A stretch of DNA of 20,433 nucleotides, taken from a virus. The position numbers were made by a program, and so were the translations under genes. The stretch is from positions 1 through 20,433 of the IMG/VR virus record IMGVR_UViG_3300050821_015285. The stretch is one strand, 5' to 3'. Each line of letters begins with the position of its first letter. The first letter of the stretch is position 1. Of this stretch, positions 14,216 through 18,846 are shown piece by piece. Under the pieces are notes generated by a model. It did no database searches and was not told the origin of the DNA. It was given only the letters and a program-made list of their open reading frames with translations.

Positions 14216-16705
14216 TCAGCCCAACTGGCGACCGGTTCGCAGTTGCGCCATCACAGCGGCACCGGCAATCTGGCCCAGTTTCGCCGCCGACGGCGCGTCG
14301 AGCATCCCGAGCACGCCGTTCTGCTGAATGATGACCGTGACGCCGCCGCTGCCGGCGCCGCTCGCGAGACTCGGCGCGGCGAGGACCGGCGGCACCGGCG
14401 TCAGCGAGGCTGCCGGGAGGACGGCCGTGGTCGCCGACGCGGCTAATGTACTCGCCGTCTGCGCCTTGAGATAGTTCTGCGTGGTCGTCCAGATCTGCTC
14501 CGCCATCTGCAACGTGAACCCTGGCATAAATTGCCACTGCTGGATGATCTCCGAGATCGATTCGCCGCGCTGTTTCCCGGTCACCGGATCGGTGACCAGT
14601 TCCATCGGCGCACCCTGAAACCCGGTTGAGGATGCCGCGGCCTTCGCGGCGGCGCCCGCCTTCGTGATGTCGGTGCCGACCTTGTTCGCCGCATCGTCTG
14701 CGGCATTGAGTTGGTCGATCCAGCTCTGCGTGCTGTTGACAATGGCGGGGGTCACGTCCACGGCGGCCTTCCCGATGGCAGTCAGCCCCATCGCGGCGTT
14801 CTTGTCGGCGTCGACCACGTCTCGCTGCGCCTGGATGGCGGCCGCCGAATAATGCAGACGGCCGGTCATCATGTCATTCAGCGTCTGCACCTGCTTCTGG
14901 TACTCCTGGTTCAGCGCCTCGATCGAGCCCTTCGCGACCCGGGCATCGTCGTTACTGGCTTTGCTGACGTCCTGCTCCCGCAGCGCCCAGAGCGCGTTGT
15001 AATAGTTGATGTCGACGACGCCCTTGGCCTGCGCCGCCTTCACGGCGATCTCGTACTTCGCCTCGGCCGCGTTCGTGGCCCGTTGCAGGTCGGTGGTCAT
15101 CAGATCGCCGGCGGCTTTGTCGTAGTCCGCCCAGAGCTGGGTGAGCGCGAGCGAGGTCGAGTCGTTCAGCTTCAGCATCTTGTCGGCGGCGGCCACCTGC
15201 GCGGTCGAGAGCTCCGGATAGGCGGCGGCCACCGTCTTCACGCTCTGTCCGAGGGAGAGGTAGTAGTTGATCTGTTCGAGAAGCTTCGGGTTGATGGTGG
15301 CGAGGGTGTCCGTGAGCGTCGCGCCCACTGAATCGAGCTCATACCAGGCGTCGCCAAACTTCTTCGCCGCGGCGGCGGCCAGCTTGTCCTCCTCCTCGAG
15401 CTCGCGGGTGGCCGTCTTGATATTCCCGACGATGTCGATCACGCCCTGCCCGCCCTGTTTGAGCGTGTCGAGACCCGCGGCCCACTTGGCTTCGGCCGCC
15501 GTCGCATCGCCCATCACCTTCGGGAGTTCGCCCCAACTGTGGCCGCTCAGGTAATCGATCAGGATCCCTTGCTCTGTAAGTCCCTTGTTCATCAGGGCGA
15601 TCGACTCGGAGAACTGGTCATTCCCCATCCCGCCTTGCACGACCTGCTTCGCGAAGTCGGCGAAGTGACTCGTCGCCAGCGTGAGCGTGGGGAGCACAAC
15701 ATTGCCGACGGTGTTCTTGAGGTTCTCGTATTCCAGGCCGAGCTGCCGCACGGCGATGCCGTAATCTTCGGCCCCTTTCGCTTGGTCTGCCGTCATCACG
15801 CCGTTCGCGACGGCTTGGTCGTAGTAGTCGCGCATCGGCTTTTCGAGCACGGCCAGACTGTCGCGGCCGGACCGGCCGAAGAGTTCCATCGCGACCGCCT
15901 GGAGGTTCGTGCTGTCGCCGGCGGCCCGCATCGCATCGGAGATCGCGAGGAGCTTCTGGTCGGGCGACAGCGCGAAAAAGTCCGCCGCGGAAATCTTCAG
16001 CGATTGCAGGGCATCGTTGAACTTCGTCGGCTGCTGCTCCATGCGCTGCTGCATCATGAAGACGAGATTGCTCATCTGCTCGAGTGAGCCACCGGCCACG
16101 ATCGCGGACTGCCGCAACGCATCGACGGCCGGCACGGTCATTGACATCTTCAGCGACGCGTCATAGACGCTGGATCCGAGCGCGGCGGCCTCTTGCGCGA
16201 GGCTGAACAGCTCTTTGCCCCCCAGCACGGCCAACGACGCGACGCCCGTCAGCGCGATCCCGGCCACGCCGAGCGTGTCGGCAAACGCGCTCAGGCCGCC
16301 CTGCGCGGTGCCGAGTGGATCACTAATCGCGGTTTTGATATCGAACTTCCCGGCCCACTCGCCGAAGCTGTCCCCGGCATTCTTCGCGGCATCGGCGATC
16401 GCCTGGATGCCAGGCGGAACGGTCTGACCTAATGCGGTCAGCTTCTCCGCCGCCTCGGTCGCTGTCGCGCCAACCTTCGCGAGCTCGGCTTCGGTCAGCT
16501 TCGAGATGCCGCCGATGCGATCGACGGCTTCGGCCATGATCGTGGCCTGCTGGACAATCTGATTCCCAGTCAGACTGTTCGCCATTTTCGAGAGCGCGCT
16601 ACTCACCTTCCCGGAGTTCGCCTCGAAATCGGTTAATTTCACAACGGCACTGTCCACTGCCGCTGAGAAGGACGAGAAGTCGGCCTGGAGGGTACCTGAG
16701 ATCAT
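14216..16705 (-). CDS. Tail tape measure protein
   Basis: Encodes 829 residues from ATG 16705, which overlaps the HNH stop as ATGA; an in-frame start 10 codons upstream would lie inside the HNH gene. The sequence is Ala-rich and mostly helical. A hydrophobic stretch at about 146-163 (GVAGIALTGVASLAVL) is typical of tape measure proteins, which form a channel in the membrane during DNA injection. Position after the G/GT chaperone gene and before the hub gene is the classical siphovirus order. By the rule of about 1.5 angstrom per residue, the tail would be about 120-125 nm long. No lysozyme or peptidase domain is evident. Confidence 0.88.
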   Translation of the reverse strand: MISGTLQADFSSFSAAVDSAVVKLTDFEANSGKVSSALSKMANSLTGNQIVQQATIMAEAVDRIGGISKLTEAELAKVGATATEAAEKLTALGQTVPPGIQAIADAAKNAGDSFGEWAGKFDIKTAISDPLGTAQGGLSAFADTLGVAGIALTGVASLAVLGGKELFSLAQEAAALGSSVYDASLKMSMTVPAVDALRQSAIVAGGSLEQMSNLVFMMQQRMEQQPTKFNDALQSLKISAADFFALSPDQKLLAISDAMRAAGDSTNLQAVAMELFGRSGRDSLAVLEKPMRDYYDQAVANGVMTADQAKGAEDYGIAVRQLGLEYENLKNTVGNVVLPTLTLATSHFADFAKQVVQGGMGNDQFSESIALMNKGLTEQGILIDYLSGHSWGELPKVMGDATAAEAKWAAGLDTLKQGGQGVIDIVGNIKTATRELEEEDKLAAAAAKKFGDAWYELDSVGATLTDTLATINPKLLEQINYYLSLGQSVKTVAAAYPELSTAQVAAADKMLKLNDSTSLALTQLWADYDKAAGDLMTTDLQRATNAAEAKYEIAVKAAQAKGVVDINYYNALWALREQDVSKASNDDARVAKGSIEALNQEYQKQVQTLNDMMTGRLHYSAAAIQAQRDVVDADKNAAMGLTAIGKAAVDVTPAIVNSTQSWIDQLNAADDAANKVGTDITKAGAAAKAAASSTGFQGAPMELVTDPVTGKQRGESISEIIQQWQFMPGFTLQMAEQIWTTTQNYLKAQTASTLAASATTAVLPAASLTPVPPVLAAPSLASGAGSGGVTVIIQQNGVLGMLDAPSAAKLGQIAGAAVMAQLRTGRQLG

Positions 16706-17544
16706 GCGAGCTTCGCGCCTTTCAACAGATTGCATCTGGCGTGCGTCGGCTGGATGTTCTCGCGGGTATGCGTCCCGCCCTTCGAGAGCGGAATGATATG
16801 GTCGAAGTGGATGCCGAATTCGTCGAACGGCTGCCGACAGATCCCACAGACGCCCTTCGCATCAGACAGGATCTTTTGAAAGTCAACTTTCTCGACCTGG
16901 GTCTGACGTTTTATGGCCCCGCGCCGACTACTCAGCTCACGCGCACGCGCAGGATATTTTGCGCGATACGCACGACAGCTCTTTCGTCTTCTGGCGCGCC
17001 ATTCTGGCGTTCCTGCCGCGCGCTCATACGCAGCCTTGTTCCACGCCGCAATCTTCGCGGCTCGTGCGACGTCGTTCGCTTGCGCCTCTAGGCGTCGCTG
17101 AGCCACTTTCGCGAGATACTCCGCCTTCAGCGCTGCACGTCCATCTTTTGCCTGGTCCGCCACAAGCGCCCGATAACGCTCATTGGCATAGGTTCGTCGC
17201 TCCTTTCGATGCGCCGCCTCCCACGCCTTCATATATGCGAGCCGCTTCTCGCGATGACGCTCCCTGTGTCGTTTGTACCTAGCGAGGCGTTTCTCGCGAG
17301 CAACATCCTGAATCGGTAATGCCGGCGGCGGTCGGTTCGCGTGGAGTTTGTCTTTGAGCATCGCCCGATATGCCAACGCGACTGCCTTCGCGCGTTCGGT
17401 CTGACGGTGCGCTCGATTCTTAGCGAGGATGGCGTTCCGATTCGCCGCGTACCACGCCTTCCGGCAGGCTGACACTTTCTCTCTATTGGCGAGATGAGTC
17501 GCCTGCCGGCTGGCCTTCGCTGTCTCCTTGTCTTTGTAAGGCAT
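16702..17544 (-). CDS. Free-standing HNH endonuclease
   Basis: Encodes 280 residues from ATG 17544 (MPYKDKETAK, a start common in this phage family); a GTG at 17574 is an alternative. Residues 1-225 are strongly basic, with repeated Arg/Lys/Tyr helical units (for example RLARYKRHRERHREKRLAYM), likely DNA-binding. The C-terminal 50 residues hold the nuclease: CGIC (233-236), HFDHIIPLSKGGTHTRENIQ with D248/H249 and N263, then H268-ARC-N272 and a final KG. One zinc ligand of the usual second CxxC appears replaced by His. It sits between chaperone and tape measure genes, which are usually adjacent, so it is probably a homing-type insertion. Its stop overlaps the tape measure start. Confidence 0.85.
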   Translation of the reverse strand: MPYKDKETAKASRQATHLANREKVSACRKAWYAANRNAILAKNRAHRQTERAKAVALAYRAMLKDKLHANRPPPALPIQDVAREKRLARYKRHRERHREKRLAYMKAWEAAHRKERRTYANERYRALVADQAKDGRAALKAEYLAKVAQRRLEAQANDVARAAKIAAWNKAAYERAAGTPEWRARRRKSCRAYRAKYPARARELSSRRGAIKRQTQVEKVDFQKILSDAKGVCGICRQPFDEFGIHFDHIIPLSKGGTHTRENIQPTHARCNLLKGAKLA

Positions 17545-17579
17545 GATGCGATCAGATACGACAGTCAGGGCCACACTAC

Positions 17580-18133
17580 TTACTCGTCCTCGTGACTGTC
17601 CGTGTCCGCGTGCGATGCATTGAACATCTCGACCAACAGCTCGTAATCGTCTTCGTCTAGTTCACGGACCCACTCGACGCGCCAATGGCAGTGGACGGCG
17701 AGGATGAGATCGGATCGGCGTCTGGCTTCGAGTCCTGGATTTTTTTTTGGGCCTGGCGTGCCGCCGTGATCGCGGCCTCGTGCGCCGTGATCGCGTCGCG
17801 GATTTCGTTGAAGCTGTCTTCATCGATCGACCGGAGCATCGACTTCACGACGTCCAGTGGTTGCCCGCGGATGACGAGCGGCTCGGCGTCCGGTGCCGTC
17901 AGCGACCAATCGATCAGATAGGCCAAGATGCTCGCCGTCTGGCTATTGGCTGGACCGACGACGAGCCGCCCCTCGGCCGTGGTGACATAGGACCCGTCTG
18001 GGTTCTTCAAGTACATGTGTTCGAACGAATCGTGGCGCTCGCCGGCGGAGAGCTTCGTGCGGACGATGATCCAATCGCCTTGGGACAGCTCGAGCTTCTT
18101 CGAGCTGGGTCGGACGACCCGTGATTCACCCAT
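17580..18133 (-). CDS. Tail assembly chaperone, frameshifted long form (lambda GT-like)
   Basis: Predicted product of -1 slippage on the A9 run at 17748-17740: 131 residues shared with the short form, then 53 new residues (184 total) ending at the TAA 17582-17580. The extension starts NPGLEARR and contains WRVEWVRELDEDDYELLVEMF and an acidic tail, a plausible protein, not random read-through. In lambda, gpG and gpGT are made by the same kind of -1 slip and load the tape measure protein during tail assembly. Gene order (tail tube, chaperone, tape measure) and the overlap of frames support the same system here. It stops just before the HNH gene. Confidence 0.75.
17657..18133 (-). CDS. Tail assembly chaperone, short form (lambda G-like)
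   Basis: Encodes 158 residues; AAGGAG lies about 9 bases before ATG 18133. It has an N-terminal beta-rich part (LSQGDWIIVRTKLSAGERH, DGRL-like strands), a helical centre (ILAYLIDWSL, VKSMLRSIDEDSFNEIRDAI) and a helical run up to the Lys pair at 130-131, where the slippery A9 run lies. The last 27 residues are Ser/Pro-rich and low-complexity, as if dispensable. This matches chaperone G in size, position and the link to a frameshift. It should bind the tape measure and tail tube proteins during assembly and not remain in the virion. Confidence 0.8.
   Translation of the reverse strand: MGESRVVRPSSKKLELSQGDWIIVRTKLSAGERHDSFEHMYLKNPDGSYVTTAEGRLVVGPANSQTASILAYLIDWSLTAPDAEPLVIRGQPLDVVKSMLRSIDEDSFNEIRDAITAHEAAITAARQAQKKIQDSKPDADPISSSPSTAIGASSGSVN
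17740..17749 (-). promoter_or_regulatory. Programmed -1 ribosomal frameshift site
   Basis: The coding strand reads CAA AAA AAA ATC, containing the canonical slippery heptamer A AAA AAA in the zero frame (17747-17741). A -1 slip joins the short chaperone to an open 53-codon extension. Nine consecutive A residues stand out in this GC-rich region. A stimulatory RNA structure downstream was not evaluated. Confidence 0.75.
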
Positions 18134-18149: not shown

Positions 18150-18437
18150 TTACTGCAGTGGCTGACCCAGAATGGCGCGCAACTCTCGTGTCCCGATATC
18201 GACTTCGTTCAACTCCCAGCACCACCTAGACCCGCGATTGCGTGGCGCGGTGAACAGGAGTTCCTTGAACTTCACCGCTTGCTGACATTGCCAGCGATCG
18301 GCCTGATTCAACGTGGCCGTGAGTTGCCAGTCACCCTGCTTCCGTTTCGTGATGCGCCAGGTCGTGAGCACGGCGATCGGACGATAGCCCCAGACGAGCT
18401 CCGCCTGACCGCCGCGCAAGGTCAGCCGCGTGAACAT
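18150..18437 (-). CDS. Small protein between tail tube and chaperone genes
   Basis: Encodes 95 residues. The ATG at 18437 lies directly behind a strong hairpin that covers the end of the tail tube gene, with no free Shine-Dalgarno site, so translation may depend on ribosomes arriving from upstream. The sequence is beta-rich and Trp-rich (VWGYRPIAVLTTWRITKRK, WQLTATLNQADRWQ, RWCWELNEVDIG). No known motif. Position suggests a minor tail or assembly protein. It is soluble and lacks a signal peptide. Confidence 0.65.
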   Translation of the reverse strand: MFTRLTLRGGQAELVWGYRPIAVLTTWRITKRKQGDWQLTATLNQADRWQCQQAVKFKELLFTAPRNRGSRWCWELNEVDIGTRELRAILGQPLQ

Positions 18438-18458
18438 CGCTGCCGACCTACGGCAGCG
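18438..18458 (-). terminator. 8-bp GC hairpin enclosing the tail tube stop codon
   Basis: The transcript reads CGCTGCCG-TAGGT-CGGCAGCG: a perfect 8-bp stem with a 5-nt loop that contains the TAG stop of the tail tube gene. No U tract follows. It is more likely to act as an mRNA stabiliser, attenuator or translation block for the next gene (which starts one base after the stem ends) than as a full terminator. Confidence 0.5.
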
Positions 18459-18846
18459 TCCAGGGACCCGCGGCCATGAACGTGCCCGAGATCTTCGGCA
18501 CCGACAGACTGCAGTCGATGTCGCAATCGATCCAGGCGAGGCCGTCGAACAGCGTCGTGGGGTCGCCCACGGAGTCGTTCCCGAGCTGCAGGAACCCGGG
18601 CGTGGCCGCCTGGGCGGCCGCGATCAGGCGCAGCTCACTGGAGTTGAAGAAGCCGGCGATCGTCCCGCTGACATCCGGGATGCCGGGCACGTACAGTTTG
18701 TTGGGATCCCCAAAGCAGGTGACGTCCTGCTTGGCGGTCTTGAGACTCAGCTTCCACGCGTTGAGGCTGAGGATTTCCGTCGGTGTCTCCGGGCTGCTCG
18801 GAACCACCTGGAGTTTCACCGTGCCATATCGCCCTGTGTTGATCAT
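18448..18846 (-). CDS. Major tail tube protein
   Basis: Encodes 132 residues; AAAGGG lies about 9 bases before ATG 18846. The beta-rich pattern (GTVKLQVVPSS, LNAWKLSLKTAKQDVTCFGD, DVSGTIAGFFNSSELRLI, GLAWIDCDIDCSLSVPKISGTF) and the motif ...AWKLSL...VTCFGD...GIPDVSGTIAGFF resemble tail tube proteins that use W..S...D.T.FGD and SGTI.GF elements. Its size is at the small end of the family. It polymerises as hexamer rings around the tape measure protein. Position after the tail terminator is as expected for siphoviruses. A strong hairpin at its stop codon could raise its expression relative to the following genes. Confidence 0.75.
   Translation of the reverse strand: MINTGRYGTVKLQVVPSSPETPTEILSLNAWKLSLKTAKQDVTCFGDPNKLYVPGIPDVSGTIAGFFNSSELRLIAAAQAATPGFLQLGNDSVGDPTTLFDGLAWIDCDIDCSLSVPKISGTFMAAGPWTLP

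Follow-up and report, generated by a model that had tools for sequence, protein, structure and literature searches.

The window analysed here, an IMG/VR virus record of 20,433 bases, encodes on its minus strand a putative tail assembly chaperone that contains a slippery site and is flanked by the tail tube and tape measure genes, all three on the same strand. In the direction of reading, the features of the locus are:

18448..18846, minus strand: major tail (tube) protein of 132 aa, matching PHROG 9522 (major tail protein) at E 6e-5
18150..18437, minus strand: protein of 95 aa and unknown function, encoded between the tail tube and chaperone genes
17657..18133, minus strand: gene of the putative tail assembly chaperone, whose zero-frame product (G) has 158 aa, from ATG 18133 to stop TAG 17659-17657
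17741..18133, minus strand: G domain until the slip site, 131 codons
17741..17747, minus strand: candidate -1 slippery heptamer A_AAA_AAA, within an A9 run at 17740-17748
17580..17741, minus strand: extension in the -1 frame (T domain) of 53 codons, closed by TAA 17582-17580
17657..17740, minus strand: dual-coding overlap of the zero and -1 frames, with a Ser-rich zero-frame tail that lacks constraint
16702..17574, minus strand: HNH endonuclease gene (Pfam HNH, E 4e-11), inserted between chaperone and tape measure
14216..16705, minus strand: tape measure protein, matching PHROG 8462 (tail length tape measure protein) at E 9e-12

The chaperone gene is preceded by AAGGAG upstream of its ATG, and its coding strand reads CAA AAA AAA ATC (CAA = 17749-17747), in phase with the ORF 18133-17657. 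The A9 run is the only one in the whole window, against a shuffle expectation of 0.01. Past the slip, the -1 frame spells NPGLEARRRSDLILAVHCHWRVEWVRELDEDDYELLVEMFNASHADTDSHEDE before its TAA, so that a ribosome slipping back one base would make a product of 184 aa (131 + 53), the slip-spanning peptide of the predicted G-T fusion containing ...QAQKKNPGLEAR..., whereas the zero frame ends in the Ser-rich C-terminus ...ISSSPSTAIGASSGSVN*. The first-pass annotation of this DNA had proposed the A9 run, the in-frame heptamer and a 53-codon -1 frame yielding 184 residues, and its codons, coordinates and lengths proved exact on the minus strand when translated. Its further claim that the extension would be missed by standard gene callers is probably correct, because the output of a mechanical ORF caller contains nothing of 20 aa or longer that ends at 17580. 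The 95-aa protein encoded upstream (18150-18437) has counterparts in the relatives inspected and has no match in Pfam or PHROG.

Neither the chaperone nor the tape measure protein, used as a direct query, found relatives among viral contigs; therefore, the tail tube (44-66% identical between the window and its relatives) was taken as the anchor for finding related loci. A search with the tail tube yielded 46 viral loci and a profile search 408, from which the best 80 were retrieved; the counts below refer to loci with sequence over the site, a few that end before or within it being left out. All 42 such loci of the first set possess an in-frame A_AAA_AAA or A_AAA_AAC followed by a homologous -1 extension, and the best 80 of 408 agree throughout, giving an in-frame A_AAA_AAN with a homologous extension in 103 of 103 relatives' loci across the two sets. 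Thus, no covered relative lacks an open -1 frame; such a lack is what the first-pass annotation had named as contrary to its proposal. With the window included, the 104 loci represent 81 distinct sites, at every one of which the heptamer is in phase and the extension homologous (55 A_AAA_AAA, 24 A_AAA_AAC and 2 A_AAA_AAG). The extensions are 41-74 aa long, with a median of 49 codons. Along a tail-tube phylogeny, built on a gene other than the chaperone, the last base of the heptamer has changed at least 14 times and the site has been lost in none, in a tree of few columns and many open forks of which the well-supported branches alone force at least five changes for the A group and at least five for the C group. 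The slip site has therefore been kept though its letters vary. The family is evidently one of uncultured viruses: no homologue of the chaperone or the tail tube is detectable among the cultured phages in the collection, bacterial and archaeal genomes scanned with the tail-tube alignment gave no match, and the tape measure protein compared with named phages gave weak matches only, in two of them.

The same sites bear on the possibility that an error of sequencing or assembly in a homopolymer has split one normal gene into two frames. Runs of nine A invite such errors and the window comes from IMG/VR as a virus record, but the A runs of the 81 distinct sites are six, seven, eight or nine bases long with the identical relation of the zero frame to the -1 frame in all of them, and such an error, contradicted by the sites of the relatives, was rejected as having negligible probability. 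They also bear on the alternative that T is encoded by a gene of its own, which starts internally and needs no frameshift. Overlap and translational coupling of adjacent tail genes are found in many phages, as this alternative would have it, but in the window the -1 frame offers no possible start until 35 codons past the slip, ATG, GTG and TTG are all missing from that frame at 77 of 81 sites between 10 codons before and 8 codons past the slip, and an ATG near the slip is found in none of the 81. Sequence conservation of the -1 frame, moreover, begins immediately past the heptamer. An independent T start was rejected because start codons near the slip are missing, and it is almost certainly not the explanation.

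Differences between relatives indicate which frame of the overlap is under selection. In 13 pairs of relatives, hand-picked as close and aligned by their -1 proteins (which leans slightly toward the -1 frame), the -1 frame has a pN/pS of 0.43 in the overlap (bootstrap 0.31-0.55) and of 0.47 (0.34-0.60) in the single-coding stretch beyond the zero-frame stop, whereas the zero frame in the overlap has one of 1.20 (0.98-1.6). By codon position of the -1 frame, the differences in the overlap number 72 at third positions versus 37 and 32 at the others. In the overlap, purifying selection acts on the -1 frame and not on the zero frame. The Ser-rich zero-frame tail is thus a passenger, a by-product of constrained -1 codons read one base off: the tail that the first-pass annotation had pointed out is present, but at a pN/pS of 1.20 it does not count as an independent feature. 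That both the A run and the open -1 frame after it arose by chance was likewise considered, since long chance ORFs are common in the window; the purifying selection on the -1 frame, together with homologous extensions in all relatives covered, led to its rejection, and its probability is practically nil.

How the frame is changed is suggested by the lengths of the A runs. If RNA polymerase added an A within the A9 run, some mRNAs would encode G-T directly, and runs of eight or nine do occur in the window and at 57 further distinct sites; transcriptional slippage on poly-A uses An with n > 7 (PMC3711429), and in E. coli cassettes the efficiency of frameshifting was correlated with the length of the A run (PMC3711429), both of which count in favor of slippage by the polymerase. 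In the other 23 of 81 distinct sites, the run is only six or seven bases, below the usual length for polymerase slippage, and at all of these sites a heptamer suited to tandem slippage, in most cases A_AAA_AAC, still stands in the right phase, something that the ribosome requires and transcription does not. Transcriptional slippage as a mechanism common to all sites is therefore unlikely, and as the account of the window in place of a ribosomal slip it is decidedly improbable, though it may contribute at the window's own A9. It is also rather unlikely that the A8-A9 sites, the window included, are partly transcriptional and the A6-A7 sites ribosomal, lineages having switched or mixed mechanisms at a single junction. 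Tandem ribosomal slippage at A_AAA_AAN is the best supported mechanism because every site holds the phase and the run is as short as six or seven A in 23 distinct sites. Counting against it, A_AAA_AAA is less shifty than A_AAA_AAG in E. coli (PMC5009743). Downstream RNA structure is not conserved (mean z -0.54 over 33 sequences; +0.94 in the window), no consistent Shine-Dalgarno-like stimulator was found across the sequences, and a search of Rfam returned nothing consistent. With neither a conserved structure nor such a stimulator found, the slip site may act alone.

The identity of the chaperone is suggested by predicted structure. No Pfam or PHROG chaperone model matches the protein above the cut-off. 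An alignment of the G domain of the window with 31 homologues (28-46% identical to it) and an AlphaFold2 model built from 31 sequences (pLDDT 90) were obtained, and the best named matches of the model among viral models (Foldseek) are annotated tail assembly chaperones: those of Bacillus phages 019DV002 (E 2e-6) and Gemini (E 3e-6) and Gordonia phage Teatealatte (E 3e-4), with TM about 0.63 and 17-23% sequence identity to the G domain. Foldseek found no match to the G domain in the PDB at E 0.001. A second look at the PDB placed the HK97 tail assembly chaperone 2ob9 first (Z 4.4, 12% identity, rmsd 4.0 across 93 residues), a likeness that is suggestive only, its Z being low and the next, unrelated row scoring 4.1. 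The model of the T domain consists of three helices (pLDDT 86); it matches no viral structure at E 0.001, and among the four chains compared in the second look at the PDB no row reaches Z of at least 2. Two profiles each match 3 of 32 T domains weakly and below the cut-off, Phage_TAC_7 of Pfam (best E 0.006) and the tail assembly chaperone family phrog_1442 (best E 0.039), which does not amount to membership in either. Separately, phrog_9046, a family of unknown function, weakly matches 21 of the 31 G-domain homologues (best E 3e-4), which suggests that it is a tail assembly chaperone family.

The locus is read, with a probability of about 0.94, as a tail assembly chaperone of the lambda G/GT type made by programmed -1 ribosomal frameshifting, as the first-pass annotation had proposed. 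The conserved site, the gene order, the predicted fold of the G domain and the selection seen at codon level all support this reading; the ribosomal nature of the slip, its efficiency, the fusion product and its binding partners are inferred. Most ribosomes would complete the 158-aa G product, while a minority, when decoding the pair of AAA lysine codons in A_AAA_AAA, would slip back one base by tandem tRNA slippage and read 53 more codons to make the 184-aa G-T fusion. In lambda, a first product and a rarer -1 frameshift fusion are made, gpG and the rare gpGT binding the tape measure protein and T binding the tail tube (PMC5009743). By analogy, the tape measure protein of the window would be coated by many G and few G-T, the T domain would recruit tail-tube subunits, making the tail tube its expected partner, and both G and G-T would depart from the completed tail.

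The window has in common with lambda G/GT a location between the major tail protein and tape measure genes and a T domain without a start of its own. It differs in its heptamer, which is A_AAA_AAA rather than the G_GGA_AAG of lambda, in a T extension of only 53 aa, in a chaperone that has no Pfam or PHROG match above the cut-off, and in the HNH gene that parts the chaperone gene from the tape measure gene. Because frameshifted tail chaperones are widespread and already known (Xu et al. 2004, as cited in PMC5009743 and PMC3711429), the system is a divergent, uncultured addition to the lambda G/GT kind and not a novel one. The analysis assigns a predicted function and a corrected gene model, the 184-aa fusion, to a divergent family of chaperones, encoded by uncultured phages, that the models of Pfam and PHROGs do not recognise as tail assembly chaperones. 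The 81 natural variants of a single slip site all retain the heptamer and the -1 frame, with no RNA structure found, and are material for defining the minimal bacterial frameshift signal.

The junction downstream of the chaperone is itself variable. The true start of the tape measure protein in the window is likely ATG 16705 (MISGTLQADF), judging from comparison of its N-terminus with those of relatives, and it overlaps the stop of the HNH gene as ATGA. In the relatives with a recognised tape measure start, the chaperone and tape measure genes adjoin, the latter starting -17 to +12 nt from the -1 stop (starts recognised by pattern only). Only one relative, L029, also has an HNH gene at this junction (L029:4367-5128, 38% identical to that of the window), and it is absent from L035, a close relative of L029. 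The presence of the gene in the window and L029 and its absence from L035 point to a mobile endonuclease at a junction that has been used more than once, or from which the gene has been repeatedly lost. In L029, the tape measure frame past the HNH gene (L029:5060-5473) has no ATG near the expected start, and the protein may instead start at an upstream GTG within the HNH gene.
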